From positions 1 to 64,000 of IMG/VR virus record IMGVR_UViG_3300032235_001069: a stretch of 64,000 nucleotides of DNA, one strand, 5' to 3'. This DNA comes from a virus. Each line of letters begins with the position of its first letter. Position 1 is the first letter of the stretch. Shown piece by piece: positions 4,073 through 26,405 of the stretch. The notes beneath the pieces were generated by a model. It had not been told where the DNA came from. It saw only the letters and a program-made list of their open reading frames with translations, and ran no database searches. The translations under genes and the position numbers were made by a program.

Positions 4073-4110
4073 ATTATTATTTAGTTAAATTGATTAATAA
4101 TGACGCTTAA

Positions 4111-6012: not shown

Positions 6013-6066
6013 AAGTTAAAATATATAGGCTATTACACAAAATTAGCAAAAAAAGTAAAAATTTTT

Positions 6067-7017: not shown

Positions 7018-7019
7018 AA

Positions 7020-7502
7020 TTAAGCTCTATAATAAATATTTGCAATAAGGCCAGTCCCATTATTTCCAGGCCAAGGATAAAGACCCTCTCTATCTTCCGA
7101 AATTTTAACTAAGATACCTTGAAATCCATGAACCAGATAAGAAAAACTTTGATCCAATGTAGATTGTGCATAAATTGGATAAGTTATGAATGGAGTAGAT
7201 TCAGCAGTATATGGATTACTATAAAATTGAACAAAGAGAGGCTCATCATTCAAATTGTTATCAACAAAAAATCCAGCTAATTTTGTAGCTCCATTATTTA
7301 CTTCTGAAATCTCTCCTGATAAATTAACGTTTCTATAAACCGAAAGCGCTGGCGGTTTAAGTAAATCGCTTTCACCCAATCCAGCCAAATCAGCAGGAGT
7401 CATCGGTCGCCATTCCTGAGTATCCCCATCATAGATGTAGGAAAACTGAGGAGCAGCTTTACCGTGATATACTGAATCTGATTTGTAAACTGGATTTGGC
7501 AT
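7020..7502 (-). CDS. Putative structural protein
   Basis: A 160-residue protein beginning MPNPVYKSDSVYHGKAAP. It has aromatic-rich beta-strand sequence (PLFVQFYSNPYTAES, VHGFQGILVKISE) and no signal peptide or membrane span. It lies between two other small structural candidates with spacers of two bases on either side, a translationally coupled arrangement. No family is recognised. A virion role is inferred only from the operon. Confidence 0.5.
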   Translation of the reverse strand: MPNPVYKSDSVYHGKAAPQFSYIYDGDTQEWRPMTPADLAGLGESDLLKPPALSVYRNVNLSGEISEVNNGATKLAGFFVDNNLNDEPLFVQFYSNPYTAESTPFITYPIYAQSTLDQSFSYLVHGFQGILVKISEDREGLYPWPGNNGTGLIANIYYRA

Positions 7503-7504
7503 TT

Positions 7505-7753
7505 TTAACTATATAAAATAACTCCCGTATTAGTTGCAGAGAGATTCCTAATAGTTGAAAATGCTACAGGATTCGGAAACGTCACATACTGATCTGTTGG
7601 AATATGAATTGTATGAGCGCCATCAATCCTCATGGTCATCTGAGTATTTGATCCGTTGTATAATGCATGAATTACGCTCGCTCCAGTAATTGTAGTGATA
7701 CCGCTTCCAGACAACGTATATAATTGTGCTACTTTTTGATAATTATTGGCCAT
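7505..7753 (-). CDS. Small putative structural protein
   Basis: An 82-residue protein, MANNYQKVAQLYTLSG..., with short beta strands (MTMRIDGAHTIHIPTDQ), resembling small phage surface or head-tail proteins. It is the first gene of the minus-strand fibre operon and shares a 53 bp divergent intergenic region with the plus-strand gene at 7807. That region contains a 14 bp palindrome. No family is recognised. Confidence 0.5.
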   Translation of the reverse strand: MANNYQKVAQLYTLSGSGITTITGASVIHALYNGSNTQMTMRIDGAHTIHIPTDQYVTFPNPVAFSTIRNLSATNTGVILYS

Positions 7754-7767
7754 ATCTAAATTTTTAC

Positions 7768-7781
7768 ACTTTCTAGAAAGT
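7768..7781. promoter_or_regulatory. Palindrome in a divergent promoter region
   Basis: ACTTTCTAGAAAGT is a perfect 14 bp palindrome midway between the divergent starts at 7753 (minus) and 7807 (plus). A TATAAT box lies 5 bp before the plus-strand ATG. It could be an operator controlling both directions; this is inferred from symmetry and position. Confidence 0.4.
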
Positions 7782-7806
7782 TAATCTTAACTAATTATAA
7801 TCTTGT

Positions 7807-8280
7807 ATGAATTTTAGTCTATATAAACCTAATTCAAAAGTTACTGGATGTGCTTTTCAATTTAAATTGGGAGAAAGTAAAAATGGCGAGAAAGTCGTCT
7901 ATGTAAGCGCTATTCAACAAGCTTCTTGGAATGAAAATACCAAGACGGGTTCATTTTCTGAAAATGCAAAGAATCCAGAAAAAAATTTAAACATTAAATT
8001 AAATGTTAATGAAATAGGCGGATTCCTATATTCAATTAGGCAATATAAAGACTTTTCAGCCTTTCATACATACGAAGATAACAAGACTCAAATTTCATTC
8101 AAGCCATATCAAAAGAAGGATGGCGCTGATGCATTTTCTTTTTCTATCTCAAGAAATGGAAATCAAAAGTTTGGAATTGGAATTGAATTAGGAGAAGCTG
8201 AAGCCTTGGGTGAATTCTTAAAGTTCTCGCTATCCCAAGTATTTTCCAATAGAAAGAATTCATCTAAGCAAGAAGAATAA
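7807..8280 (+). CDS. Candidate PC4/whirly-like ssDNA-binding protein
   Basis: A 157-residue protein with strand-rich segments (GCAFQFKLGESKNGEKVVYVSAI, TQISFKPY, AFSFSIS) ending in a helix with the pattern IELGEAEALGEFLKFSL. This beta-sheet then helix order, with an FHT..TxISFxPY core, resembles the PC4-like single-stranded DNA-binding fold used by some phages and by kinetoplastid MRP proteins. The last residues are charged (NRKNSSKQEE). It overlaps the next ATG by one base (TAATG). The assignment is by eye and needs a structure comparison; a virion protein is the alternative. Confidence 0.45.
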   Translation: MNFSLYKPNSKVTGCAFQFKLGESKNGEKVVYVSAIQQASWNENTKTGSFSENAKNPEKNLNIKLNVNEIGGFLYSIRQYKDFSAFHTYEDNKTQISFKPYQKKDGADAFSFSISRNGNQKFGIGIELGEAEALGEFLKFSLSQVFSNRKNSSKQEE

Positions 8281-10178
8281 TGAAAAAGAAAATCCTCTTT
8301 CATTCTAATTACTCTAGAGCATTTACTGGTTTCGGTAAGAATGCTAAAAATATTCTTCGCTATTTATTCAATACTGGAAAGTATGAGATAATTGAAGCTG
8401 CAAATGGAATGCCATTTGAGTCTGAAGAAACAGCAAGGCAACCTTGGAAGAGTTATGGCACTTATCCAAACCAGCAAAAACTAGAGCAACTAAAAGCTCA
8501 AGATCCAAACATTGAAAGAAGTTTGGGCTATGGAGCTGGAATGATTGATGATTTAATTAAATTAGTTAAACCAGATATCTATATTGGCGCAGAAGATATT
8601 TGGGGATTTAATGGATACTGGGACAAGCCTTGGTGGAGCAAAATTAATTCAGTAATTTGGACGACATTGGACAGTTTGCCAATTTTACCAGATGCAGTTA
8701 ATGCGGCTCCTAAAATTAAAAACTATTATGTTTGGGCTTCCTTTGCAGAAAGAGCATTAAAAGGATTAGGTTACAGTAATGTTAAAACTTTGCGGGGTTG
8801 TTTAGATACTTCTAAATTTTTTAAGATTCAAGAAGAAGAAAGAACAAAGTTAAGAAAGAACTTTGGATTAGATGATTCTTTTTTAATTGGATTTGTATTT
8901 AGAAACCAATTAAGAAAGTCAGTACCCAACTTGCTCGAAGGCTTTTCCATTTTTAGATTTAACAATCCTCAAGCAAATGCAAAGCTACTGCTTCATACTC
9001 ACTGGTCTGAGGGTTGGGATATTCCAAGATTGTTAAGGGAAAAAAATATTCCCGCAGATTTAGTTTATACAACTTACTTTTGTCATGCTTGTAATAATTA
9101 TGAAGTCAAGCCATTTACTCGACAAAATATTGGATGCAAGTTTTGTGGCAATCCGAATAGTCAAGTAACTACAAATGTTACGGCTGGAGTTTCTGACAAA
9201 CAATTGAATGAGATTTACAACTTGATGGATGTATATTGTCACCCATTTACAAGTGGTGGGCAAGAAATTCCTATTCAAGAAGCAAAGCTTGCGGAACTTA
9301 TTACTTTGGTTACTAATTATTCTTGTGGCGAAGATAGTTGCACCACGGAAAGTGGAGGCATGTCATTGGATTGGACGGAGTATAGAGAGCCTGGAACTCA
9401 GTTCATTAAAGCTTCAACTTGTCCGCAAAGCATTAATCAAAGACTTACCGAAGTCTTTTTTATGCATCCTGACAAGAAAATTAGAATTGGGCAAGCTGCC
9501 CGAAAGTGGACAATAGATAATTTTTCTGTCGAAGTAATCGGCAAGAAGCTTGAAGAAATGTTTGATTCATTTCCAGAAGTTGATTATGATTTTTCTTTCG
9601 AACAAGAAGATCCAAACATTGCATACGCAATGCCAGAAATTGAAAGCAATGAAGATTTTGTTGTAGATCTGTATGCAAATATTCTTAAAGAAAAGATAGA
9701 TAAAAATCATGCTAGTTGTCTCGAATGGATGAATCAGTTAAAATTTGGCATCTCAAGAAAACAAATTTACGATCATCTTATTAATCAAGCAAAGCAAAAA
9801 TTAAATAAGCCTAAACAAATTAATTTTGAAGATCTTTTAGATAAGGATGACGAAGGTAAACGATTAGCCGTAGTAATTCCACAATCAGGTGGAGATGTTT
9901 TAATGGTCAATTCGCTTCTTGAAAATTTAAAATCCTTGTATCCAGAGTATAATATTTATATTTTCACCGAGCCTAAATTTTTTGATTTGATTAGAGATAA
10001 TCCAGCAGTGCATAAGGTATTGCCATATAATCCAATTTGTGACAATCTATTATTCTTGGAAGGCCAAGGCGCACACAAAGGATTTTTTGAATTGGCATTT
10101 TTGCCACACGCCACAACTCAAAAATTCTTCGCTTACCAACATAACGGAAAAGATAAAATTCAATTTTCATTAGTATAA
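8280..10178 (+). CDS. Glycosyltransferase, GT4-like with start of a GT9 domain
   Basis: A 632-residue protein. Residues 1-430 look like a GT-B glycosyltransferase: an N-terminal HSNYSRAFTGFGKNAKNILR segment, a DVYCHPFTSGGQEIPIQEA motif (the nucleotide-sugar-binding Glu region of GT4 enzymes) and a C-terminal helix. Near residue 267 there is an insertion with two CxxC pairs (CHACNN...CKFCGN), a probable zinc ribbon. From about residue 525 the sequence matches the N-terminal half of GT9 heptosyltransferase-like enzymes (AVVIPQSGGDVLMVNSLLENL), and it stops after about 108 residues. The rest of the GT9 domain is in the next gene. Likely target is a virion or DNA glycan, or host surface sugar. 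Confidence 0.7.
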   Translation: MKKKILFHSNYSRAFTGFGKNAKNILRYLFNTGKYEIIEAANGMPFESEETARQPWKSYGTYPNQQKLEQLKAQDPNIERSLGYGAGMIDDLIKLVKPDIYIGAEDIWGFNGYWDKPWWSKINSVIWTTLDSLPILPDAVNAAPKIKNYYVWASFAERALKGLGYSNVKTLRGCLDTSKFFKIQEEERTKLRKNFGLDDSFLIGFVFRNQLRKSVPNLLEGFSIFRFNNPQANAKLLLHTHWSEGWDIPRLLREKNIPADLVYTTYFCHACNNYEVKPFTRQNIGCKFCGNPNSQVTTNVTAGVSDKQLNEIYNLMDVYCHPFTSGGQEIPIQEAKLAELITLVTNYSCGEDSCTTESGGMSLDWTEYREPGTQFIKASTCPQSINQRLTEVFFMHPDKKIRIGQAARKWTIDNFSVEVIGKKLEEMFDSFPEVDYDFSFEQEDPNIAYAMPEIESNEDFVVDLYANILKEKIDKNHASCLEWMNQLKFGISRKQIYDHLINQAKQKLNKPKQINFEDLLDKDDEGKRLAVVIPQSGGDVLMVNSLLENLKSLYPEYNIYIFTEPKFFDLIRDNPAVHKVLPYNPICDNLLFLEGQGAHKGFFELAFLPHATTQKFFAYQHNGKDKIQFSLV

Positions 10179-10179
10179 T

Positions 10180-11415
10180 ATGTCACATCTTATAGAAGAA
10201 TACGCAAAAGCGCTTGGTGTAAAAATCGGCAAGCCATACCTGTGCGAGCATTTTTACCCAATCCTTGATGAAAAATATATTACAATTCATACGGACAAAA
10301 GAATTGATTCGAAGAACTACGAATATTTCCCGCAGGTTTTAAATATTATAAAATCTACTTTAAATAAAAGGGGTTATAAGATATATCAAATAGGTGGAGC
10401 GGAAGATCCAAAATTGGATAATGTTGACGGCTGTTTTCTTAATTTAAACTTTAAGCAATCAGCATATTTAATCAAAAGATCTCAACTACATCTTGGGATT
10501 GATAGTTTGCCAGTTCATATAGCCAGCATGTATGACGTACCAATTGTTGTGCTATACTCGCATACCTACGCAGCAAATGCATATCCATATTGGTCATCAA
10601 AGGAAAATGTTATCGTAATTGAGTCTGAAAAGAATGGTAATAAACCCTCATTCTCTTATCAAGAAAGCCCAAAAACAATTCGAACAATTAAACCAGAAAC
10701 AATTGCTCAGTCAATTTTTGATCTATTAAAAGTAGAAGAAAAAATTAATTTTAATACTTTGAGAATAGGTAGTCACTACCATGTTCCATTTGTAGAAATC
10801 GTCCCAAACTTTAGAGCAAATTTAGAGGATCAAAAAAGCAAGACTCTTTATATTAGAGCGGATCTTCATAATGATGATCAAACAATCGCATTCTGGTGCG
10901 CAAATTATAAAACAAAAATCATCGCAGCAAATGAAATTCCAATTCCGTTAATCAAGCAGTTCGCGTCGAACATAGAGCATATTTATTTTAAAATTAAAGA
11001 CACTTCGATCAGTAATGATTATTTTGATCTAGTAAAAAAGTGCAAAATAAATTTTACAATTTGCGTAGATAATGATGAAAACATCGCTCAAATAAGAAAT
11101 CACTATTTTGATTTTAGAGTAGATTTAGATAACGTAAAAGAAAGAGTTGCAAAAATTACAAAACAAAATGGATATTTCTTGACTAATAAAATTTTAATTT
11201 CTCAAGGGATTCTATATCCGAGCGAAGCTCATTTAAATGCAAACAAAAAACTTGACATGCTTAATGAAGTGATGCATGATGATGATGCATTTTGGAAAGA
11301 TGCAGAACACTTCTATATTTATGACTTCATCATCAGAGAAACAATCGAAAGCGCAAGCTCAGAACCCCAAGAATGCTCAAGAAAACTTGAGGAAAGCGAA
11401 CGGACTCCTATCTAA
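10180..11415 (+). CDS. GT9 glycosyltransferase C-terminal half plus extra domain
   Basis: A 411-residue protein. Residues 1-190 continue a heptosyltransferase-like fold where the upstream gene stops. It starts SHLIEEYAKALGV, has the strand YITIHTDKR, and then the sugar-nucleotide site with LGIDSLPVHIASMYDVPIV, equivalent to the GxDSgpxHlA motif of GT9. Residues about 200-411 are a second alpha/beta domain (LYIRADLHNDDQTIAFWC...) I cannot name. The start is one base after the previous stop (TAATATG), in a different frame. A split enzyme working as a heterodimer with the upstream product is the simplest reading. Confidence 0.65.
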   Translation: MSHLIEEYAKALGVKIGKPYLCEHFYPILDEKYITIHTDKRIDSKNYEYFPQVLNIIKSTLNKRGYKIYQIGGAEDPKLDNVDGCFLNLNFKQSAYLIKRSQLHLGIDSLPVHIASMYDVPIVVLYSHTYAANAYPYWSSKENVIVIESEKNGNKPSFSYQESPKTIRTIKPETIAQSIFDLLKVEEKINFNTLRIGSHYHVPFVEIVPNFRANLEDQKSKTLYIRADLHNDDQTIAFWCANYKTKIIAANEIPIPLIKQFASNIEHIYFKIKDTSISNDYFDLVKKCKINFTICVDNDENIAQIRNHYFDFRVDLDNVKERVAKITKQNGYFLTNKILISQGILYPSEAHLNANKKLDMLNEVMHDDDAFWKDAEHFYIYDFIIRETIESASSEPQECSRKLEESERTPI

Positions 11416-12109
11416 CGTAGAATACGTCTTTAACGAAGATGGCTCAATTAATTGGCGAGCTATGGTTAAAGCAGAACATCTTTACCCAAATAAAGATTGG
11501 TTCGAACTTCGAAAGTTAGAAATGCCTCCCACCATTGAAGGGTTGGCAGATAATCAATTACTTATTAAGCTTGGTGGATTGAAAGATCTCGCAAAAATGC
11601 GAGGATTTAATTCAGTCTCTTATGAGGTTATTAAATCCGAAAGAGATTATGTCGTTGTTAAATGTAAAATAAATTGGATAGGTAATTTTGAAACAAGTGG
11701 CATTTGTGTGGAGTTCGAAGATATGGCTAATGCCTCATTAGAAAATACTAATGACTTCTGCGCTAAATTTCTTGAAACTATTGCTACAAATCGTGCATTC
11801 GTTCGTTGCGTTCGCAATTTCTTAAACATTCACATTGTTGGTGATGATGAGATTGATAAGTCGAAAAGCAAAAGCAAAGTTTACGAAAATTCTGAACAAG
11901 TGCAAATCGATGGAGATATCTCTCCACAAAATCTACTTAGGAATCATGCTGTAAAAAAATTGAGCATTAGTAACTTTGAAGACTTCAAACAAAAACTGAG
12001 AGATATGTGGATGTCTGAATCTTATCAAAATCCAGAAGCAAAAAGCTGGAATTCATTTAAAGATATTCCAGCTAGAGAATGTCGCAAGTTAATTTCAATT
12101 ATTTCTTAA
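11321..12109 (+). CDS. Conserved phage protein of unknown function
   Basis: A 262-residue protein if it starts at the ATG at 11321 (MTSSSEKQSKAQ); upstream in-frame ATGs exist from 11276. The recognisable core starts VEYVFNEDGSINWRAMVKAEHLYPN and contains GLADNQLLIKLGGLKDLA, a beta-rich middle and the helix FLETIATNRAFVRCVRNFL. The helix and strand order is loosely like Rad52-type single-strand annealing proteins, and the PC4-like gene is nearby, but I see no decisive motif. It overlaps the end of the glycosyltransferase gene by about 95 bp and is followed by the GNAT-like gene one base after its stop. Confidence 0.55.
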   Translation: MTSSSEKQSKAQAQNPKNAQENLRKANGLLSNVEYVFNEDGSINWRAMVKAEHLYPNKDWFELRKLEMPPTIEGLADNQLLIKLGGLKDLAKMRGFNSVSYEVIKSERDYVVVKCKINWIGNFETSGICVEFEDMANASLENTNDFCAKFLETIATNRAFVRCVRNFLNIHIVGDDEIDKSKSKSKVYENSEQVQIDGDISPQNLLRNHAVKKLSISNFEDFKQKLRDMWMSESYQNPEAKSWNSFKDIPARECRKLISIIS

Positions 12110-12110
12110 T

Positions 12111-12581
12111 ATGTCGGAATCTTTTATTAAAAAAATTATCTCTCCAGAAGAATTAGAGATAGTTGCAAAAGATATTTATTCGCTCCATGAGATAGATAAT
12201 GAAAAGTACGGCCATGCACTTGATTTAAAACATGATTATGAACTTATTTATAAATCTTTATCTCATGAATCATTATTGATTTGGAACATTCATGTTTGGG
12301 CACATTTCAATGGAGAAAAATACGATAGTATTTTCATTGGAATCATTAGAAAGTCGGAAAAATTTAATAAAAAAATAATGGATGAATATTTGTGGCTTGC
12401 TAAAAAATCAAACGTTGGAATGAAATTATATAAAATTGCACATGAATTTGCAAAAAGTCAAAAATGTGAATATATTTCAATGAATGTCACGGAAAGACAT
12501 CCCCTATCCAATAAAATAAAAAAAGTATATAAATTACTTGGATACGAAAAAGACTCCGAATCTTACATTAAAAAAATTTAG
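12111..12581 (+). CDS. GNAT-like acetyltransferase candidate
   Basis: A 156-residue protein. The centre has a strand pair (LIWNIHVWAHFNGEKYDSIFIGII) followed by a helix and then FAKSQKCEYISMNVTERHPLSNKIKKVYKLLGYEKDSE. The terminal 'xxxxLYxxLGYxxxxxxY' pattern is typical of GNAT enzymes, where it lies by acetyl-CoA. The acetyl-CoA loop itself (R/QxxGxG/A) is not clear, so the enzyme could be degenerate. Its stop codon overlaps the end of the convergent giant tail gene by four bases. Confidence 0.45.
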   Translation: MSESFIKKIISPEELEIVAKDIYSLHEIDNEKYGHALDLKHDYELIYKSLSHESLLIWNIHVWAHFNGEKYDSIFIGIIRKSEKFNKKIMDEYLWLAKKSNVGMKLYKIAHEFAKSQKCEYISMNVTERHPLSNKIKKVYKLLGYEKDSESYIKKI

Positions 12582-15500
12582 TATTCAAGAATCAAAATTG
12601 ATCTTGAAGCCATCGTAGAAATTCTATTTAAAAAATTATTATTGCCCTGCATTGATAAAACTCCATTGTATGTTTGCATGTCTTGAGTGGAAGAAGAAAT
12701 TGACACTTGATAAGTCCCAATTTCAAAATTTGCATTTTCTAAATCAAAATTAATTTCATATTCATTATTAATTTCGCTATAGTAATCAATTCCTATATTT
12801 GAAATTGTATGATTATTTGTTTGCTTTGATGGAGTTTGTATAAAAATTTGATAAACTAAATTAGTATTTGAATTAGTGGGCGTCCATTGAATATTTAAAT
12901 ATTTTTTATCATAATTATTATCTCTAATATATTTTAAAGATTTAAATATTGGAGCCTTTAATAAGGCGTCTTTTTCGGAAGAATTATTTTTCGAATTATA
13001 AGCCGAAATAAAATTAAAAGTACTATTTAAATCATCTATAGATGCATTTTCTTCTATCAACTTAAATTTGTCAGCATTGTATTCTGTTGCCAATAAATTA
13101 TATTCATTTATATAATTTTCAGTAATTGACATTATTTTAAAAATTGGCTGATTAATATTTTTAATTTTTAATGAAAATTGAGAACCTACAACTAAATTTT
13201 GAATTCCATTTTTTACGGATTCTTTAATTTTGTTAAAAGATCCACTTTCATAATCCCAGCCACTTTTTGAAATTTCTAATTCTGAATATCCAGAATCTGG
13301 ATAATTGTATCCAGTAATTATTTTAAAATTTTCAATTGATGGTCTATCATTCTCTATTATTTCAGAATAGCTGATTGATCCACTTGAATATCCCAAGGAG
13401 TCATTTACACAAATTTTAAAAGGTTCATCAGTATTTCCAGTAATTGAAAAACCAGAATAATCATAAAGAGGTTCATTTAGCAAATTTGTTCCAGTAAATT
13501 TCAAATATTTGCCGCTATCAAAAATTGAAAAGAAATATTGTTTTTTTTGATTTGTGTTTTTGCAAACTAAATCCGATACAGAATCAAATAAATATAAATC
13601 TTGCCCCATTTCATCTGGATTTCCTGTTATCAATTTCCAATGTCCATATTTTGCAGAATAATTATTATTTATATCATAATTTCTGACATATTTTAAAGAA
13701 CTTTGATAAGTGATTGTACTAGATAAAGGTTCGGAATAATCAAAGGAAATTAATCCAGTGTAATAGTAAGCTTGATTTATTAAATCTCTATCTTCTGTTT
13801 TTGTAAAAATAAATTCTTTATTTACGAATTTTTCATCAATTCTTTTTGTAATAATATTGTTTGTTGCTATTTTTATTTGATATGGATAAGATTCTGTTGA
13901 GGATGAAATATCTTCATATTTTGGCTTTGAAGTAGCGGTATATAGCGTTATTTCTGAAACGTCTAAAAATGTTTCGCAAATAGCGGGAGAAACTATAATT
14001 TTAAATTTATCATCATTTAAATTTTCTATTTTCTCTACTCTACCAAAATTTCTATATGAATTAAACAGTTCATCATTAATTCCTATTAAATCTCCAAGCT
14101 TGTAAAGCAATGCTTTCATGTCCGTAGTAAAAGAAACGTTCATATTTTCTTTTGACGTTTGAAATAGGAAATGCAAGCCTAATCTTCTCGCTTGTCCTTT
14201 TGACGTTACTCCAAAGGCATTTATTTGTTTTTTAAGAATACCTCTTTTTCTTATGCCATCTGAATCTTCTACATATTCAATTTTTGGTTTATAATTATCC
14301 TTTTCATCAATATATGCAACTTCAACCGCTGTATATTCATCATCTTTTTTATGATTTGTATAATTAAAAATACCATCCTTAACATCTGAATTATTAAATT
14401 CTCCAATAATTGGTTTAAGTCTGTCATCATCAAACGTAATCATTGAATTCATGTAATAAACATGACCCCTAAAAATTGAAGCAATTTGATTAATCATGTC
14501 AAAGACATTAAATTTTTCAGTTATAATACCATTAAATGCGTGTCTTGGCTCAGTACCACCATAACTATCTGGAACTCCGTAGTAATATCCATTATCATCA
14601 ACGCCATCACACCATCTAGCTATTTTATAAAGTTCCCATATGTCTATTTGGTCTGAAGATATATAGTTTCCTAATCCATATCTTTTATTTACAAGCATGT
14701 CCATCAAAATCCAAGCTGGATTATTTGTCCACATTAATTTAAATGTACCATCCCAATCTCCATCGTATATTTTATATTTACCAGTTCCGTCCATGTATCT
14801 GACATCTTCCCCATCTTCATCATTTGGAAAATAATTAGAAGGAACCAAAATCTTTTTAAGCTTGCAATCAAAAGTTCTAGTTGGTATTTGGGAAAATGCC
14901 CTAGAATCAATTTTCATTCCAACCATTGAAGAGAAGGGGTATGAAAATTTCTGAGGAATAATTTCAGTAATTTTAGCTAAAGCAACTCTTTTTGAAATCA
15001 ATGGAGATAGCGTTTCGTAAGAAAGTTTTGTAACTTTTACATATCTTCTGAATGGCGTACCATCTTCATAATATTTTGGAGCTGGAAGTTTAATTGCTAA
15101 TCCAGCATCATTTGCAAAAGTATTATTAGAATCACTATCTATATTTGAAAATGGAACATTTTCATAATATAAAAAAGTTACGTCTCCATTTGCGGCTTTA
15201 TAAGTTTTTTCATAAATTGAAGTCGCTATGTAATTTTTAATTTTTAAATCTCTTTTTATTATTCCACATGATGATAAAACGTATTCAAAACATCTCAAAA
15301 TTGTCTCTTGTTGAATAGAACTTGGTAAATCAAAAGTAATAATTCTATTATTATTTAGAAATCCATCTTGAAAAAATTCTACGTGATGGTAGGCTGTTGG
15401 TCGTAAATCTTTTAATTCTTTTAAAAATCCAACTGTCCCACCTTCGTTGCCAAAATACGAATATTGTATTTCATATCCTTTGCCAACGCTAGAAAATCTT

Positions 15501-18500
15501 CTACCACAAAAACGCTGAGTATAACTATCTTGAATAGCGTTACATAGTGTTATTTGTTTTGATCCTGCATAATTACCCCAAAAATAAAAATCTGCAAGCC
15601 CTAATAAATAGTTTATCTGTCTGCCATTATAAAGACTAGAACTACTTTTCCCAACTTGCACAGTGTAATCAAGAGGAATATTCGTACATGTACTAAAAGA
15701 ATTTGATCCATCTCTAGTACCATAAAGAACATTACTTTCATAAGAAGTAAAAGTAATATTACTTATATTGCAAATATAATTTGCGACATCAATTGAATTA
15801 GAAGTATTAAAATTAATTTTTCCATTAAAATTCTGATCAAAAATAAAAGAAATTTTATTTGAAGAATTATTTAAAATAACCCAAAAACTTCCATTAAAAA
15901 ACAAAGGATCAATTTTTTGTGGTAAACCAGCAGCTCTTTCTTGGAGATTTACAGATGGAACAGTAATTACTTCACTAGCAGTTATATGCTTGACTGCGCC
16001 TATACTTTGCGATTTAAAATTAGATGCATTAAGCACTTTTGAAAAAAGTTCATAAAACACATCTGATCTTTTATGTTCAAATACCCAATTTGTATTTTTA
16101 AAATAATTTTTAACATATTCAAAATTCAAAGAATCTATGATTGTTGTACCACTAGCGATTCTTGTTAAAAAATTTAAGTTATTAATTATTTTTGAATTAA
16201 TCTTATCCAAAATTAATTCTTCTTGTAAATAAGCGTTAATATGATTTGATAAATTAATTTTAAAACTAGAATCCAAGGTGGTTTTATAAGAATTAAAAAC
16301 TCTATCTTTTACGGAAAATTCATTTATATTTGCAATTGGATCAAAAAGCGCCTTACTTATTCTAATTATAAAATTTCCATTTTTCCAATTTGCATAAGTT
16401 TCAGGTAAAACTTCAGATCTTGATGGATTAGTTTCCAATGCTGGGAAATTAATAATCACATCATTGGGGAAATTTTTTTCTAAAGTTTTGTAAAGAGATT
16501 GATAATTGTCGCCTCTATAACCAACGAATTCTTCAAAATAAAAAGACATGTAATAATTAGATGCCGTGTAATTTCTAATTTGCTGATCAGTTGGGATATC
16601 CACAACTTGAAAAGCTGTATAGTTATAATTATATAATTCAATTTTAATGCACTTATTAATATTTGAGCAATCGTATATTGCAAAAGTATCAAAATTCTTT
16701 TCGCTAGAAGTAAATTCTGCATAGGAATTGGTATAATTTTCAACAGTTAAAATATTATTTGGTAGAATTTGTTTATTAATGCTATTTCTCTTTCTCAAAA
16801 GACTTTGGCTTTGTCCGAGATCTATTTCCTCATATGCATTATTAAAATAATTGCTTACAATTGGTCCTGAAGAAATGATAAATCGACCTGTCAAATCACC
16901 ACCAGCAATTAATTTATTTTGCGCAGTTGCAAGAATCGTGCAGACACTATTATTTGAAACCACTCCATACTGAGCTGCAAAATCAGAATCTTGTTTCCAA
17001 CAAAATGCATCAAGAGATTTTGCAAAAGTGCCAGAAATCCCACCAGCATAATAAACTCCATTATGATAAGATAATGTGCAAATTCCAGTAATTCCAAAGC
17101 TGCTATTGCGCTCCGTCCAAGTTTGAGCATTTGGAGATGTAGCTAACGTTCCACTTGCTCCAGCAGCCACAAATAGCGAATTGCCAAATATGACACAATT
17201 AATACCAGTAGTTCCGAAACTGCTGATTCTTTCAGTCCAAGTATTTCCATCGGTTGAAGTTGCAAGTTTCCCACTTTGACCAGCAATAACGTAGCAATTG
17301 TTTCCAAAAGCGACTGTGGAAATTCCAGTTGCACCCCAGTTTATATTTCTCGTGGTCCAATTACATGCATCTGCAGATGTTGCTAATTTACCGCTTGCTC
17401 CAACAATTACGTAACAACTATTACCATAAGTTAATCCAGAAATTCCAGTAGTTAAAAAACTACTTGTTCTTTGCGTCCAATCAATTGCATTTGGAGAAGT
17501 AGCAAGTTTACCAGAATTACCAGCGGCAACATATAAATTATTTCCATAAATTACTTTCTGTATTCCAGTACTTCCGAAACTACTTGTTCTTTGGGTCCAA
17601 CTTTCTCCATCGCTTGATGTCGCTAAAAATCCACCAGTACTAACTGCTATATAACATTGATTTCCACAAGTTAAACTTTTAATTCCAGTTTGATTAAAAT
17701 TATTTATTGAAACTTTATGAAATAAAGTTCCACCTTCGTCTAAATCTCCAATTCTGTAATCGTTTAAATCAGAATTAAAACCAAAAATTAAATCATCATA
17801 TTTTTGTATTGCCTCAGAACCGTAAATTGAATTTGAGATATTAATTTCTTGTTTTAAACCTATTACTTTATCATTTTGTATTATTTCGCAAATTCCTTTT
17901 TCTTCATCTTTTTGTCCAAATTTCAATCCTAAATCAACAAAATCAATTTCTTTATTATCAGTCAAAAAGAATCTTAATTTTTGATTAATTCCATCGACTG
18001 AAGACGTAACTTTTAAAAGGTATATTTTTTTATCTGGATAATAAAGATTTGTCGTTTTAACTAGATAACCACCAGAATCAAAACTTCCTTTTGTTCCATA
18101 AACAAAATCATAAGTTTTTCTACCCAAGTCTATATACGACTGCTGCGTAGAAACGCCAAATATTTCAAAAAAATATTTAAAATATTCATTTGGACCTATG
18201 CAAAAAACTCTCTGTTTGGATTCATACCCAGTTTCAACTTGCACTTTTACAACTGCTGGCAATCTTGTTCCTGCTGTTATGTTTTGTAATTTATCACCAA
18301 AGCCTGGATTTAGTTGAGTCGTAGTAGCAGAATTAGCAGTACCCTTATAATAACTTATTTTCTCTAAATCTGGATTATTTATTGATGTTGATACATTTGA
18401 ATATAATTGATAAAATATAATAACATCCGATCCTTGGTTAACTTTTGTATATGCGCCATCTATTATAAAAATATTTTTTGGGTCATAAAAATTGTAATTA

Positions 18501-21256
18501 AAAGTCTTGTTATCAGAATTAATTAAAAAAGTATGAATTCTATTATTTTTAACATTATTTAAATCTGCATTATCTAAATAAACTCTTATAGTATTAGCGT
18601 CAAAAACACTCACTTTTTCAAATAAATATACAGAAGAAAAACCAATTAATTTTCCACCCTCGAATTTTTTTAAACTTTCCTGCAATCCAGAAGTAAAAGA
18701 AACATCTGTAATTATAGATCCACCTTCAACTGATGCGGAATATGTTAGCCCAGAAGGAGATTTTAATAAATATTCTTCTAAAAGTTGATCTAAAACACTT
18801 AATTTTAATTTTCCAGCTGACTGAAAATATGAAAGCTGACTATCTAAATAATGTTTATTAAAACCAATTAGATATAAATTTTTAATGACATCTTTAGCCC
18901 CGTCTTTTATAGTATAAGTTAAATTACTTTTTGAACTCCAATATCTCAAAAATGGATCAACAATATATCTCTGGACATTTGGGTATAGAATATCTAAATT
19001 ATCAATTGTGTTTGGTGTATCTTTTGCAACCGAATTTGCAACAGAATCCCAATATTTAAAAATTAACTTGTAATCAATATAGTTATTTAATATCAAAGCT
19101 ACAGAAGCTCTTTTCTTAAGTTCACTTTCTGGCGCTGTATAATATTTGTATTCTGCTACTATTACGTTTTTTGGATTTGCTAGAGATGGTATATTAGTAG
19201 TAATTAAAGTTAAAAAAGAAGTTCCATTTATGCATAAAGTTTCTCTATCAGTTAAACCATATGAATATGCAATAGTTCCATCTATATTTCTTGATTTTAG
19301 TTTTGATTCAAACGCGCTTGGATTTCCGATATATCCATTTATGCATATCGATTCTTTTGTGTAGCAACTATTGTTCGGAACGGTCCAACACCTTAGTGGA
19401 CTGGCTGTAGATAAGTCGTATTTTGTATTTGATAAGCCGTCATCACTAGCGGTAATATAATTATCAATATTATTTATTTTAGTGCATAAACCTATTGAAC
19501 TTTTAATTGCTGAAAAATAATCGCAAGTTGTGGAAGTAATATTTTTTATATTACAAAATATGCAACTTAAACATTCATTTTCGTCAATTATGTATCCATC
19601 GCTGATTGAGGTTCCAGCAATTAAAAAGTATCCTGTTTTAATTGAATTGACTACATAATCTGTTTTTTGAATTTGTGCCCAAGTTTTTGTACCTGGAGGT
19701 ACTGGGAGCGTTTGATTAGCTTTATTTACATCAGTGCGAAATCCAGGCTGGACACAATCCACATGTGCCGTATCATATAGGGCATCTAATGACAATGTTA
19801 CATAAACTTCTTCTACGTTTTCATTTGCTATGTAATGAGTTATAGGTACTGCTTCTTGACAAATTCTAGATGCCGAAGTTTTATCATATAAAGAATAATT
19901 TGTGTAAAGATTGCATATTAAATATGGAGCACCATCATTTGCATATTCAACAGGCCAAGCTCTTACGTATCTAATATCATCAGAACTTTCTGGCACTGTT
20001 GAATATGTTGGCTTTGAATTAGCGTCCGCACAAAAAGACGCTAATCTGGTAACTCCCATATATGTTGCTGGGTCAGTTCCAGCTGCAGCCGTTTTTTTGC
20101 ACGCAACAAGTTTAAATGGCCCAATTAATTCTTTTCCAATATTATTTTCAATTTCAATTCTATTAAATGCTTTTAATGGGGTTTGGATTTCAGATCCATT
20201 TTTAAATTCCGCTTGAACTAAATTATAATTATATAATGAAACATCATTTTGATAAACGATTAAATTGTTAAAATATTTATCTAAAATATTATCAATATTT
20301 TTAATTCCATCAGTTTCGCTATAAATAGACCAAATAAATAATCTCAAATTAAAAACATCATATTGGTAATAATTACTTGAATCAATTAAAGTCTTCAAAA
20401 AGGTTTTTTGTCCAGCAGGCGTCAATGAGCCGTTTTCCGCATAAGACCTTGGCATTTCAAAATAATTGAAAGAATTCAAAGAATCAGATCCAATTGAAAA
20501 ATAAATATAATTTCCCAAATTTGGTATTGATATTTTTAATGGATATTTTCCATCAACACCGCCTTCGGTTGGATCGAACGTTTTATTTATAAAAATTTTA
20601 AATTTTGGAATTTCTATTGATGTGAGAAATATATTTTCATTTTCAATTGGGGATAAATTAAAAGTTTTATCCAATAAAGCCTGCACATCAAAAGATCCTC
20701 CCAATAATTTAATAAAATTATATGCAGAATTTTTAGGACTATATGAAGTTATTTTTATTCCAGAATCAAAATTTGCATTATCTATGTCAATAGAAGTAGA
20801 TCCAATTTTTAATATTCTGCTAAAAGAATCAACCGAACCATCTACATTTAATATCGAAGTATCGGGCAGATTCACAACGCCATCGCTAAAACAATTTTTA
20901 TTATCACTCCAAAAATCCTTTAACGCTCTTTTTAAAAAATCTATTGATATTTTTTGAGTTTTTATCGAAGATGTTTCCTTAATAGGTGCATCATTTAAAT
21001 ATATGCCCTCAAATATGTTTTCTTCATATACTTTTTTTCCGTTTTTATTAACTAGTCCTTCAATTGGACCATCTGAAATTAAATCTATTAATTCGGCATA
21101 AGAAAATGAAGATACTGTTGCAACTCCGCCCATCTGCGGCGGAGCTAAAACTGAAGGATATTGAGTGACGGTTGGTGGCGGCGAAGGTGGTGGGGATTTT
21201 GGACCACCACCAGCTCCCAAAATAGTAAATTTATTTTTTTTGATTAAATGCTTCAT
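12578..21256 (-). CDS. J: Giant gpJ-like tail tip/host-specificity protein
   Basis: A 2892-residue protein, more than twice the length of lambda gpJ (1132). Residues 21-29 are proline rich. Residues 56-69 (ELIDLISDGPIEGLV) are the gpJ N-terminal signature. Residues about 1180-1465 hold six to seven repeats of about 42 residues with Asp-box-like turns (TSxDGxxWTxR), a beta-propeller. The conserved gpJ core lies near residues 2150-2430 (IARWCDGVDDNGYYYG, GTEPRHAFNGIITEKFNVF, GQARRLGLHFL), and an Fn3-like module is near 2770-2880. It is the last of the L-K-I-I-J tail-tip operon, with a 1 bp gap to gpI. It should form the trimeric central tip; the insertions give it extra ligand-binding surface. 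Confidence 0.9.
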   Translation of the reverse strand: MKHLIKKNKFTILGAGGGPKSPPPSPPPTVTQYPSVLAPPQMGGVATVSSFSYAELIDLISDGPIEGLVNKNGKKVYEENIFEGIYLNDAPIKETSSIKTQKISIDFLKRALKDFWSDNKNCFSDGVVNLPDTSILNVDGSVDSFSRILKIGSTSIDIDNANFDSGIKITSYSPKNSAYNFIKLLGGSFDVQALLDKTFNLSPIENENIFLTSIEIPKFKIFINKTFDPTEGGVDGKYPLKISIPNLGNYIYFSIGSDSLNSFNYFEMPRSYAENGSLTPAGQKTFLKTLIDSSNYYQYDVFNLRLFIWSIYSETDGIKNIDNILDKYFNNLIVYQNDVSLYNYNLVQAEFKNGSEIQTPLKAFNRIEIENNIGKELIGPFKLVACKKTAAAGTDPATYMGVTRLASFCADANSKPTYSTVPESSDDIRYVRAWPVEYANDGAPYLICNLYTNYSLYDKTSASRICQEAVPITHYIANENVEEVYVTLSLDALYDTAHVDCVQPGFRTDVNKANQTLPVPPGTKTWAQIQKTDYVVNSIKTGYFLIAGTSISDGYIIDENECLSCIFCNIKNITSTTCDYFSAIKSSIGLCTKINNIDNYITASDDGLSNTKYDLSTASPLRCWTVPNNSCYTKESICINGYIGNPSAFESKLKSRNIDGTIAYSYGLTDRETLCINGTSFLTLITTNIPSLANPKNVIVAEYKYYTAPESELKKRASVALILNNYIDYKLIFKYWDSVANSVAKDTPNTIDNLDILYPNVQRYIVDPFLRYWSSKSNLTYTIKDGAKDVIKNLYLIGFNKHYLDSQLSYFQSAGKLKLSVLDQLLEEYLLKSPSGLTYSASVEGGSIITDVSFTSGLQESLKKFEGGKLIGFSSVYLFEKVSVFDANTIRVYLDNADLNNVKNNRIHTFLINSDNKTFNYNFYDPKNIFIIDGAYTKVNQGSDVIIFYQLYSNVSTSINNPDLEKISYYKGTANSATTTQLNPGFGDKLQNITAGTRLPAVVKVQVETGYESKQRVFCIGPNEYFKYFFEIFGVSTQQSYIDLGRKTYDFVYGTKGSFDSGGYLVKTTNLYYPDKKIYLLKVTSSVDGINQKLRFFLTDNKEIDFVDLGLKFGQKDEEKGICEIIQNDKVIGLKQEINISNSIYGSEAIQKYDDLIFGFNSDLNDYRIGDLDEGGTLFHKVSINNFNQTGIKSLTCGNQCYIAVSTGGFLATSSDGESWTQRTSSFGSTGIQKVIYGNNLYVAAGNSGKLATSPNAIDWTQRTSSFLTTGISGLTYGNSCYVIVGASGKLATSADACNWTTRNINWGATGISTVAFGNNCYVIAGQSGKLATSTDGNTWTERISSFGTTGINCVIFGNSLFVAAGASGTLATSPNAQTWTERNSSFGITGICTLSYHNGVYYAGGISGTFAKSLDAFCWKQDSDFAAQYGVVSNNSVCTILATAQNKLIAGGDLTGRFIISSGPIVSNYFNNAYEEIDLGQSQSLLRKRNSINKQILPNNILTVENYTNSYAEFTSSEKNFDTFAIYDCSNINKCIKIELYNYNYTAFQVVDIPTDQQIRNYTASNYYMSFYFEEFVGYRGDNYQSLYKTLEKNFPNDVIINFPALETNPSRSEVLPETYANWKNGNFIIRISKALFDPIANINEFSVKDRVFNSYKTTLDSSFKINLSNHINAYLQEELILDKINSKIINNLNFLTRIASGTTIIDSLNFEYVKNYFKNTNWVFEHKRSDVFYELFSKVLNASNFKSQSIGAVKHITASEVITVPSVNLQERAAGLPQKIDPLFFNGSFWVILNNSSNKISFIFDQNFNGKINFNTSNSIDVANYICNISNITFTSYESNVLYGTRDGSNSFSTCTNIPLDYTVQVGKSSSSLYNGRQINYLLGLADFYFWGNYAGSKQITLCNAIQDSYTQRFCGRRFSSVGKGYEIQYSYFGNEGGTVGFLKELKDLRPTAYHHVEFFQDGFLNNNRIITFDLPSSIQQETILRCFEYVLSSCGIIKRDLKIKNYIATSIYEKTYKAANGDVTFLYYENVPFSNIDSDSNNTFANDAGLAIKLPAPKYYEDGTPFRRYVKVTKLSYETLSPLISKRVALAKITEIIPQKFSYPFSSMVGMKIDSRAFSQIPTRTFDCKLKKILVPSNYFPNDEDGEDVRYMDGTGKYKIYDGDWDGTFKLMWTNNPAWILMDMLVNKRYGLGNYISSDQIDIWELYKIARWCDGVDDNGYYYGVPDSYGGTEPRHAFNGIITEKFNVFDMINQIASIFRGHVYYMNSMITFDDDRLKPIIGEFNNSDVKDGIFNYTNHKKDDEYTAVEVAYIDEKDNYKPKIEYVEDSDGIRKRGILKKQINAFGVTSKGQARRLGLHFLFQTSKENMNVSFTTDMKALLYKLGDLIGINDELFNSYRNFGRVEKIENLNDDKFKIIVSPAICETFLDVSEITLYTATSKPKYEDISSSTESYPYQIKIATNNIITKRIDEKFVNKEFIFTKTEDRDLINQAYYYTGLISFDYSEPLSSTITYQSSLKYVRNYDINNNYSAKYGHWKLITGNPDEMGQDLYLFDSVSDLVCKNTNQKKQYFFSIFDSGKYLKFTGTNLLNEPLYDYSGFSITGNTDEPFKICVNDSLGYSSGSISYSEIIENDRPSIENFKIITGYNYPDSGYSELEISKSGWDYESGSFNKIKESVKNGIQNLVVGSQFSLKIKNINQPIFKIMSITENYINEYNLLATEYNADKFKLIEENASIDDLNSTFNFISAYNSKNNSSEKDALLKAPIFKSLKYIRDNNYDKKYLNIQWTPTNSNTNLVYQIFIQTPSKQTNNHTISNIGIDYYSEINNEYEINFDLENANFEIGTYQVSISSSTQDMQTYNGVLSMQGNNNFLNRISTMASRSILILEY
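16870..17715 (-). repeat. Coding repeat: seven-blade propeller in gpJ
   Basis: Six clear units of about 126 bp encode the pattern TGIxxVxYGNxxYVxAGxSGxLATSxDxxxWTxR with an Asp-box-like S/T-x-D-x-x-x-W turn. A seventh, divergent unit (AAQYGVVSNNSV...LTGRFIIS) closes the array. Neighbouring units are similar enough in DNA to suggest recent amplification (GTTCTTTGCGTCCAA-type stretches recur near 17470 and 17590). Confidence 0.75.
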
Positions 21257-21257
21257 T

Positions 21258-21917
21258 TTAATTAGCCAAAAATTCAGAAAATAAAACTAACGATTCGTTG
21301 CCAATAAATTCTTCAGAAGATTTTGAATTTGTTGGATAATTTAAAACAGAGGAAAAAATTACTGATGAGCTTGTTTTAATTTTTCCATAACCAACTGGAA
21401 TTGCAGATCCTTGCTCAGAACTATTTACGTTATTACTAAAAACATAACTTTTCCCAGCAGATTCTATTGCTAGAGTTGCTCCGCCAACCGCTATGTTTTG
21501 AACTCCCATTGAAGGAGGCGAAGCTTGCTTCATTAAAGCGCTCATTAAAAATGAAACCCCCAAAGAAATTGCCATGTTGACTAAGCCAGCCACAATTTGA
21601 CCCGCCACAGTTAATGAACCAGCAGCAACTAATCCTATTCCAGCAGCAACAAGTTCACCACTTCCATATATAATTGGAATTATGTGAATTGACTCTATAG
21701 ACCTCTTTTCAATTAACTGATTTTGATTTTGCATTTCTTCATTATCAACTATAATAGAATAATAAATACCATTTTTACTCAATGATGATATTTTTTGGAG
21801 AAAACCTTTTTTATTAGCATCTATTCCTTTTAGTGCGGATAATGCGTTATTAATTTTTAATTTAAAAAAATTTCCAAAAATATGAGCTAATTCCCCATGT
21901 AAATAAATTTTAGTCAT
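21258..21917 (-). CDS. I: gpI-like tail assembly protein, copy 1
   Basis: A 219-residue protein. Residues 1-85 form a ubiquitin-like domain (KIYLHGELAHIFGNFFKLKI...IIVDNEE...IHIIPIIYGSG), as in lambda gpI. It is followed by a Gly/Ala/Val-rich hydrophobic stretch (AAGIGLVAAGSLTVAGQIVAG) and a C-terminal tail with GKSYVFSNNVNSSEQGSAIPVGYGK. It overlaps the second gpI copy by eight bases and sits next to gpJ. gpI acts in tail-tip assembly between gpL/K and J. Confidence 0.8.
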   Translation of the reverse strand: MTKIYLHGELAHIFGNFFKLKINNALSALKGIDANKKGFLQKISSLSKNGIYYSIIVDNEEMQNQNQLIEKRSIESIHIIPIIYGSGELVAAGIGLVAAGSLTVAGQIVAGLVNMAISLGVSFLMSALMKQASPPSMGVQNIAVGGATLAIESAGKSYVFSNNVNSSEQGSAIPVGYGKIKTSSSVIFSSVLNYPTNSKSSEEFIGNESLVLFSEFLAN

Positions 21918-22521
21918 AAATGTCTATTTTATTTCCCAAGGAGTAAAAATCAGCTTCCTCATTAAATGAAATATTAGTGGGATAGCTTTTTACGGATATC
22001 GCTAAAATTTTAGAAGCAGTTTTAAATCTACCATATCCAAAATCTACTATTGTTCCTTGTGAAGATATGTTTTGCATATTGTCGAAAATATAACTTTTTC
22101 CAGCAGCTTCTGAAGCGTAAGCTGCACCACCAATAGATTGATCTGGCAGTTTAGGTGGAGATGGAATTTTTATCATGGCGTATTGAGCCATCGAAAAAGC
22201 GCTAGTTAAAAGCGACACTCCCAACATTGGCATGCCGAATGCAAAAGCCACTACTGCCGCTACAACTAAAACTGCCGTAACAACCCATTTCCATACTTTT
22301 CCACTTCCGCCAATTATCGGCAGTATGCATAAAGTTTTATTTTTTTTATCAATTTGAATGCAATAACTTAATTTATTTTTATTTAATTCGTTTATTTTTT
22401 TTCTAAAACCATTCTTTACAGCATCAATCGCAATTAAAACGTCATTTATTCTTCCTAAATGAATTTTTATTGTTTCTCCAAATTCTTTTGACAACAAACC
22501 GTATATTTTTACAGTAGTCAC
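21910..22521 (-). CDS. gpI-like tail assembly protein, copy 2
   Basis: A 203-residue protein with the same plan as the neighbouring gpI: a ubiquitin-like N-terminus (VKIYGLLSKEFGETIKIHLG ... LCILPIIGGSG), a hydrophobic segment (WVVTAVLVVAAVVAFAFGM) and the shared C-terminal motif AAGKSYIFDNMQNISSQGTIVDFGYGR. The two copies are clearly paralogous but diverged. Start and stop overlap both neighbours by four to eight bases, so translation is likely coupled. A tandem gpI duplication is unusual. Confidence 0.75.
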   Translation of the reverse strand: MTTVKIYGLLSKEFGETIKIHLGRINDVLIAIDAVKNGFRKKINELNKNKLSYCIQIDKKNKTLCILPIIGGSGKVWKWVVTAVLVVAAVVAFAFGMPMLGVSLLTSAFSMAQYAMIKIPSPPKLPDQSIGGAAYASEAAGKSYIFDNMQNISSQGTIVDFGYGRFKTASKILAISVKSYPTNISFNEEADFYSLGNKIDIYD

Positions 22522-24769: not shown

Positions 24770-25740
24770 AAGAAATGCTATCTTACAAAGATGTAGTTTT
24801 AATCCCTAACTACTCTGAAGTAAAATCAAGAGACAACCTATCAACAGAAGTAGATTTTCTCGGAACAAAATTCAAATTGCCAGTTTTGCCAGCAAATATG
24901 GCATGCACAGTAAATTTTAAATGGGCGGAGACGCTTGGAAAACAAGGATATTTTTACATTTTGCATAGATTTTATGATTATTTTGGCAAGAGTGGAATTC
25001 GCGAATGGTTAATGGCTAAAAATAAATCAGGCTTTCCTTTAAGCATTAGTGTCGGAGTAAAAGATATTGATTATGATCTGCTGCAAGATCTGGCAGAAAA
25101 TGATTACAATGTTCATTTTATTACTATTGATGTTGCTCACGGACATAGTTTGCAAGTAAAGAATGTTTGTAAATTTTTTCATCAACTTCCTTGGAAGATT
25201 AAACCAAAACTAATCGTTGGCAATGCTGGATCAGTTTCAGGAGCAAAAGACTTGATTGAATGGGGCGCAGATGCAATTAAAGTTGGACTTTCAATGGGTG
25301 CGGCTTGCACAACCTATAATAATACTGGTGTGGGTACGCCAATGTATTCGATCATTGCTGAAATCAAAGAAGCAATGGAAAACAAAATCATGCCAAAAGT
25401 TCCAATTATCGCTGATGGACAAGTAAGAGAAGTGGGAGATTCCTGTAAAGCCCTCCATGCTGGAGCAGATATGGTTATGGTTGGCGGTATGTTTGCGGCT
25501 TGCCATGACAGTGCGGCTCCTTTTAATGGAGACAAGAAAATCTTTTATGGTTCTGCTTCTGCAAGAAATAAAGGCGAAGACAAATATACCGAAGGAAGAG
25601 AAAGTTTAATTGATTTATCTCAAGATTCAGTAATCGATTTGTTAAAAAGATTCGAACAAGGAATTAAATCATCAATGTCATATGCTGGGGCATCATCTCC
25701 ATACGAATTGTGTAAAATGGAAGTAAGGAAAAGAGTATGA
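24766..25740 (+). CDS. GMP reductase/IMP dehydrogenase family enzyme
   Basis: A 324-residue TIM-barrel protein. It begins LSYKDVVLIPNYSEVKSR, as in IMPDH/GMPR. The phosphate-binding and catalytic loop is VGLSMGAACTT with Cys181 as likely nucleophile, followed by TGVGTPMYSII, which resembles GMP reductase (TGVGYPQLS) more than IMPDH. IADGQVREVGDSCKALHAGADMVMVGG completes the active site. There are no CBS domains. GMP reductase converts GMP to IMP and would feed guanine nucleotides to the adenine pool, useful to an AT-rich phage. It overlaps the next gene by four bases. IMPDH remains possible. Confidence 0.8.
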   Translation: MKEMLSYKDVVLIPNYSEVKSRDNLSTEVDFLGTKFKLPVLPANMACTVNFKWAETLGKQGYFYILHRFYDYFGKSGIREWLMAKNKSGFPLSISVGVKDIDYDLLQDLAENDYNVHFITIDVAHGHSLQVKNVCKFFHQLPWKIKPKLIVGNAGSVSGAKDLIEWGADAIKVGLSMGAACTTYNNTGVGTPMYSIIAEIKEAMENKIMPKVPIIADGQVREVGDSCKALHAGADMVMVGGMFAACHDSAAPFNGDKKIFYGSASARNKGEDKYTEGRESLIDLSQDSVIDLLKRFEQGIKSSMSYAGASSPYELCKMEVRKRV

Positions 25741-26405
25741 CTCCCGAAACCAAAAACAAAATACAAAGAATTTTAAACTATATAGAATCTGGCTCGCAAA
25801 ATGGAAATTATGCGGCCATTTCTCTATATAAGGATGGTCCCAATCAAATCAAACAAATTACATTCGGCAAAAGCCAAACAACAGAATGGGGCAATTTAAA
25901 TAAATTAATATCCCTATATGTTCAAAAAGATGGCAAATTTGCAGATGAATTAAAGCCATATTTACAAAAGATCGGAAAAGTTTCAGTAGTAAATGACGCA
26001 AATTTACTTTCCTTGTTAAAGGGCTCTGGTTCAGATCCAATCATGCAAGAATCTCAAGATGAATTTTTCGATGAACATTATTGGAAGCCTGCTGTAAAGT
26101 GGTTTGAGTCAAACAAATTTACTTTGCCACTTTCCATGCTTGTGATTTATGATTCTTTCATTCATTCTGGCAGTATTTTGAGCTTTTTAAGGAATAAATT
26201 TTCTGCTTCAATTCCTTCCAAGGGTGGAGGCGAAAGAGAATGGATTGTTTCTTACTTGAAAGTAAGACATGAATGGCTAAAAAATCATTCCAATCCAATT
26301 CTTAGAAAAACAATTTACAGAACAAGAGACATGCTTGCAGCAGTAGAAAAAGAAAACTGGGATCTTAAGCAAGTTTATCACTGCAATGGCGAAAATATCG
26401 CTTGA
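25737..26405 (+). CDS. GH46 chitosanase-like endolysin
   Basis: A 222-residue protein matching the plan of family GH46, whose members have a lysozyme-like fold. Glu17 in LNYIESGSQNG matches the catalytic Glu of chitosanases (AENSS). LSMLVIYDSFIHSG matches FAYYDAIVMHG, and GGGEREWIVSYLKVRHEWL matches the downstream GGDETxYLxxFLDxR motif. The usual second acid (Asp40 in Streptomyces N174) is not clear in ITFGKSQTTEWGN. There is no signal peptide, so it needs a holin. It probably cuts peptidoglycan glycan strands during lysis. Its start overlaps the GMP reductase stop. Confidence 0.7.
   Translation: MTPETKNKIQRILNYIESGSQNGNYAAISLYKDGPNQIKQITFGKSQTTEWGNLNKLISLYVQKDGKFADELKPYLQKIGKVSVVNDANLLSLLKGSGSDPIMQESQDEFFDEHYWKPAVKWFESNKFTLPLSMLVIYDSFIHSGSILSFLRNKFSASIPSKGGGEREWIVSYLKVRHEWLKNHSNPILRKTIYRTRDMLAAVEKENWDLKQVYHCNGENIA

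Follow-up and report, generated by a model that had tools for sequence, protein, structure and literature searches.

The window, by which we mean the whole 64,000-nucleotide stretch of IMG/VR virus record IMGVR_UViG_3300032235_001069 analysed here, comes from an uncultured lambda-like phage and encodes a gpJ-family tail-tip hub protein with a predicted beta-propeller in its interior. The features of this gene are as follows:

12578-21256, minus strand: gpJ-family tail-tip hub protein (P0001), 2892 aa, with matches to PHROG_31, PF13550 and NF049904
20972-21091, minus strand: aa 56-95, N-terminal gpJ segment corresponding to lambda gpJ 26-55 (blastp E=0.021)
15056-20971, minus strand: aa 96-2067, giant insert of 1,972 aa replacing lambda gpJ 56-172 (FNIII-A/HDII-ins2 region), with colinear lambda matches on both sides
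19766-19852, minus strand: aa 469-497, possible FNIII-A remnant (lambda gpJ ~97-125), weakly suggested by a conserved motif
16862-17719, minus strand: aa 1180-1465, predicted seven-bladed Asp-box-like beta-propeller (repeats, alignment, predicted fold, Foldseek)
17594-17713, minus strand: repeat unit 1, aa 1182-1221, box SSDGESW
17474-17593, minus strand: repeat unit 2, aa 1222-1261, box SPNAIDW
17354-17473, minus strand: repeat unit 3, aa 1262-1301, box SADACNW
17234-17353, minus strand: repeat unit 4, aa 1302-1341, box STDGNTW
17114-17233, minus strand: repeat unit 5, aa 1342-1381, box SPNAQTW
16994-17113, minus strand: repeat unit 6, aa 1382-1421, box SLDAFCW
16862-16993, minus strand: repeat unit 7, aa 1422-1465, degenerate and without a box (aligned to unit 7 of stand-alone propellers; strands predicted)
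14036-15055, minus strand: aa 2068-2407, gpJ hub core corresponding to lambda gpJ 173-495 (blastp 32% identity, E=2.5e-50)
12965-13420, minus strand: aa 2613-2764, aligned to lambda gpJ 479-630 (blastp E=2.9e-4)

Profile matches to PHROG_31 (E=3.7e-109) and Phage-tail_3 (PF13550; E=1.4e-17, above the cut-off), together with blastp, establish homology to lambda gpJ and identify a gpJ/TipJ hub core. The NF049904 model, lambda_TipJ, matches only residues 2073-2413 (E=2.3e-58), with 197.6 bits against a curated cut-off of 1950; by that cut-off, and by the C-terminal central fibre and receptor-binding domain, the window gpJ falls outside the lambda-type proteins. Its neighbours stand in the L-K-I-J order: a Phage_tail_L/PHROG_18 gene is followed by a JAB-type minor tail protein (gpK-like), two PHROG_32 genes (gpI-like) and gpJ. 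This order, the hub core and the insertion place are all shared with lambda (PMC10721106, PMC11101478). The two adjoining PHROG_32 (tail assembly) genes, at 21258-21917 and 21910-22521, appear to represent a duplication of the gpI-like plug protein, and two such ORFs are also present in the related loci L003 and L004.

Several other genes in the window deserve mention. Genes at 8280-11415 are convergent with gpJ; one matches Glyco_transf_9 (heptosyltransferase), and its neighbour has a glycosyltransferase-like reading without a Pfam match. Both glycosyltransferase-type genes also lie near gpJ on the L004 contig. Two ORFs at 1844-6012 have weak PHROG tail or virion matches and are possible fibres, hence rival receptor binders. 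A glycosyl hydrolase family 46 (chitosanase-type) match is found at 25737-26405 (E=5.3e-13).

The first-pass annotation described this gpJ as more than 1700 residues longer than that of lambda, and with lambda gpJ at 1132 aa (PMC11101478) the difference comes to 1760. Aligned to lambda gpJ (all such comparisons used the fetched record L016), the window protein has ~1,970 aa between lambda positions 55 and 173, where lambda has ~117. The propeller contributes ~286 of these residues and is not the main cause of the protein's size. Outside the propeller, the giant insert has no Pfam or PHROG family and no solved-structure match. The profile phrog_1727 matches the N-terminal gpJ segment, at aa 48-97 (E=3.9e-7), and in a whole-gpJ tblastn search against phages matches start only at aa 1938.

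In lambda gpJ, the HDII-ins2 domain is inserted in HDII-ins1 (PMC11101478); we take it to be the same part as the FNIII-A insertion region (PMC10721106). The motif at aa 469-497 is conserved in 11 giant gpJs and resembles lambda 97-125 in hhalign (P=0.0066, at a probability of only 5.7%), with weak PF24801 matches in relatives. Fragments of the FNIII-A domain may thus remain, with the propeller located in a loop further on. The other end of the protein also differs. The C-terminal ~500 aa of lambda gpJ include a helical shaft, the central fibre and the receptor-binding domain (PMC11101478), whereas the window gpJ ends 128 aa past the position that aligns with lambda residue 630. By this alignment, it is without room for a lambda central fibre and C-terminal receptor-binding domain.

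The repeats of the propeller are sharply defined, with a period of exactly 40 residues across units 1-6 (aa 1182-1421). Self-identity reaches 0.43 at a lag of 40 and 0.40 at a lag of 80, compared with a maximum of 0.17 among 2000 shuffles over lags 15 to 99, and it nowhere exceeds 0.14 in the rest of the window gpJ. Units 1-6 are 32-70% identical in pairwise comparisons, and each carries S-x-[DN]-[GA]-x-x-W, a motif with one residue fewer than the canonical Asp box. The canonical form, S-x-D-x-G-x-T-W, has zero occurrences in the whole window gpJ, and the propeller gives no Pfam BNR match. With six copies of the 7-residue variant and none of the 8-residue canonical box, the repeats are properly called "Asp-box-like". 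Six or seven such repeats had been proposed at 16870-17715; we find six with the box variant plus the degenerate seventh, and boundaries that differ by a few bases. Four propellers, including that of the window, align over seven units, and the one-to-one alignment with stand-alone seven-unit phage propellers shows that the seventh unit completes the ring. Rotated copies of the repeat array aligned poorly, and single units gave no searchable pattern.

Given a 54-row alignment of the window and locus proteins, AlphaFold2 predicts a ring of stranded blades matching solved propellers, with a mean pLDDT of 84.3 and a pTM of 0.81. Averaged over ten-residue blocks, pLDDT is mostly 92-98 in blades 1-6 and 62-88 in the seventh blade, and it is low at the segment ends; prediction from the single sequence gave a mean of 30.8. 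The best solved match in Foldseek is Ycf48 (5ojr; E=3.5e-13, TM 0.73 by target length), with a probability of 1.00 against Ycf48 and WD40 proteins. Among viral models, it matches many phage proteins, including other phage propellers and a cyanophage baseplate wedge initiator. A propeller had been suggested from the letters alone, with a non-propeller fold named beforehand as the outcome that would overturn the idea, and the prediction instead returned a confident seven-bladed propeller.

Ycf48 (PDB 5ojr, 2xbg) is likewise a seven-bladed propeller, but it is a photosystem II assembly factor with ~15% identity to the window sequence, and no shared function is implied. The likeness is one of fold only: the Ycf48 profile PF14870 (PSII_BNR) gives no match to the window propeller up to E=10, and PDB sequence searches returned no propeller for either the window sequence or a four-row profile. 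A relative from phage DSL-LC01 gave a weak Ycf48 match. DUF6242 (PF19755) matches the window sequence at 31.9 bits against a gathering cut-off of 29, in four stretches that cover only part of the profile. Overall, the model supports, with high confidence, a complete beta-propeller with seven blades, similar in kind to Ycf48/DUF6242.

Sialidases typically have Asp boxes, and the propeller could be imagined to trim envelope or capsule sugars enzymatically, for instance as a sialidase-like glycosidase. A match to an NCBIfam glycosylhydrolase model points the same way but, at 30 bits, is far under the cut-off of 175. No sialidase family is found in Pfam up to E=10, and the nearest solved fold, Ycf48, is no glycosidase. 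In addition, only one arginine (column 2) recurs across the units, and the related gpJ L200 does not retain it. An enzymatic role is highly improbable, and we rejected it on the Pfam, NCBIfam and fold results.

Judging from sequence matches, the propeller family is widespread among phages, and those of its members that were examined are frequently linked to virion proteins. Ten records of isolated phages match, none annotated as gpJ; they include Actinomycetia phage DSL-LC01 (45% identity), Limnohabitans phage DC31 and cyanophage baseplate proteins. The DSL-LC01 propeller belongs to the same repeat family, its seven units aligning 1:1 with those of the window, but it is a stand-alone gene and the cyanophage version is part of a myophage wedge protein; neither lies in gpJ. 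The family also matches 253 stretches in IMG/VR, where the examples examined are stand-alone genes of ~300 aa, long arrays or fusions to fibre-type sequence, and 51 loci in bacterial genomes. Homologous propellers lie C-terminally in proteins that otherwise show phage tail-fibre repeats (L067), an Mtd_N domain (L044), collagen together with a carbohydrate-binding module (L051), or a match to a tail-fibre family (L011). In L042, a galactose-binding match from Pfam was set aside since it overlaps the repeats. One viral ORF of 3589 aa (L027, 3205-13971) consists almost entirely of the same propeller repeats, with 23 profile matches. The unusual part of the window propeller is its place inside gpJ, for which we found no report in the open-access literature.

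How is the propeller distributed among related gpJs? Searching IMG/VR with the gpJ core returned L003 (93% identity) and L004 (72%), and a search with the gpJ alignment returned 66 loci. The distance from the N-terminal match to the core ranges from 185 to 1,965 aa across relatives. It is 1,482-1,965 residues in the complete gpJs with giant inserts, which include those of the window, L003, L135, L137, L140, L141 and L205, and ~530-840 residues in most others. The first-pass annotation called for the insertion to be sought in related gpJs, and it is indeed present at the same site in two of them: L200, where it is complete (aa 1677-1963), and L008, where ~three blades precede the contig end. 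It is absent from the gpJs of L202, L205, L135 and L003. The L003 protein matches window aa 1-1169 and 1449-2892, with ~ten residues joining the flanks. Because gpJ homology resumes on both sides and relatives cleanly lack the propeller, we regard it as an insertion. A scan for the window-L200 junction found no further example.

Some relatives encode gpJ in pieces. In L004, whose contig is shared with L139 and L207, it occupies two ORFs (3953-8164 and 8168-12460; 1404 and 1431 aa) separated by one in-frame TAA that falls within the giant insert, reflecting either a gene split or an assembly error. The L204 gpJ consists of two overlapping ORFs, and in L189/L190 the N-terminal gpJ segment and the core lie on separate ORFs ~1 kb apart (7876-8187 and 9185-12268).

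When the tree is built from the N-terminal insert with the propeller left out, the window groups with L200, L008 and L003 (100/100), and within this group L003 is sister to the propeller-bearing L008 (100/99). The fewest propeller changes on this tree are two, which suggests one gain and one loss; recombination could also produce the pattern. Each of units 2-5 has the corresponding L200 unit as its best match, indicating that the ring was inherited whole. Comparing diversity did not bear out the idea that the propeller evolves faster than its surroundings: identity to L200 is 62% in the propeller versus 74% and 68% in the flanks, but identity to L008 is 80% versus 73%. Differences from L200 are concentrated in the turns between strands 1-2 and 3-4 (31/48 versus 58/192 elsewhere, P=2e-5), with columns grouped after the differences and model had been seen and two L200 residues omitted to keep register. 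We rejected this concentration as evidence of binding, since the grouping is post hoc and turns vary more in most proteins.

The L200 gpJ contains a further insert of ~500 aa (aa 128-634; locus ~10076-11596) that is absent from the window. Its sequence is beta-rich and repeat-like, with a Pfam FG-GAP_2 match at only E=0.035 and no phage or PDB match, and it may be a second propeller.

Such variability, seen in the extra L200 insert and in the 185-1,965 aa spacing, would fit a largely neutral passenger, one of many inserts gathering in a tolerant gpJ region and lost again without strong selection. Against this history, which we consider quite improbable, the L200 propeller, at 62% identity, keeps the register of all seven blades and conserves their strands, implying that folding is under selection.

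Alternatively, the propeller might serve tail-tip structure or docking, keeping adjacent tail proteins or fibres in place without itself touching the host. The T7/SU10 nozzle protein has a core of seven-bladed propellers, which line its channel (PMC9509320); that nozzle is a structural part of a podophage tail and is likened to the window propeller by fold, not sequence. Ycf48, an assembly factor whose structure was determined with a D1 peptide, and the related propellers of cyanophage baseplate wedge proteins are also consistent with a structural role. However, L003 cleanly lacks the propeller while the rest of its gpJ is closely related, which is awkward for a load-bearing part, and many homologues are stand-alone or C-terminal in fibre proteins. 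We consider a purely structural role unlikely.

We favor the reading that the propeller acts as an adhesin at the tail tip and is optional and exchangeable, with a rough probability of 0.6; its fold and modularity are computed, and host binding we infer. Three observations favor receptor binding: homologous propellers are C-terminal in tail-fibre proteins, the propeller is cleanly present or absent between close relatives, and the window gpJ lacks a lambda-type C-terminal receptor-binding domain. Beyond this context, the adhesin reading draws on precedent. The receptor-binding protein of phage phi11, Gp45, has a propeller with a cavity that could hold GlcNAc and is displayed as a trimer on a siphophage tail tip (PMC4901313), and fibres of contractile injection systems carry propeller lectins (PMC12923769). 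The phi11 propeller, likened here by architecture, has five blades and belongs to a separate receptor-binding protein rather than a hub insertion (PMC4901313). PhiKZ gp131C, as far as it is cited in PMC4901313, has a seven-bladed propeller at the baseplate periphery whose receptor role is only speculated, and there it is the C-terminal domain of another protein in a myophage.

The propeller is a single-module insertion in a part of gpJ that was expanded already, at the site of lambda FNIII-A/HDII-ins2. Since gpJ is a trimer in lambda, three propellers would, by analogy, be displayed around the tail tip. If exposed on the outside of the tip, they could bind an envelope sugar or protein and hold the hub at the membrane while it opens, and they may play a role in host range. 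Some evidence runs counter to this reading. The fibre-like genes at 1844-6012 could carry out recognition, L003 appears to do without the propeller, which would not be essential to its gpJ, and divergence of propeller versus flanks is inconsistent. On sequence, model and analogy, the propeller may be a receptor-binding module, a role that is plausible though unproven.

What we describe is known parts in a new combination. Lambda-like phages both seal and open their tails through the hub protein gpJ, whose C-terminal fibre is usually credited with recognizing the host. A complete propeller within the hub, shared by some relatives and cleanly lacking in others, suggests a second place for changing what such phages bind. 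We tentatively raise a broader possibility: in the giant-gpJ lineage, the FNIII-A/HDII-ins2 region might be a docking place for whole modules swapped in and out, such as the window propeller and, at another site, the ~500-aa, possibly propeller-like insert of L200, so that host recognition would have moved from the lambda-type C-terminal central fibre into the hub. The idea of a second binding place is directly testable, because closely related gpJ cores occur both with the module and without it.
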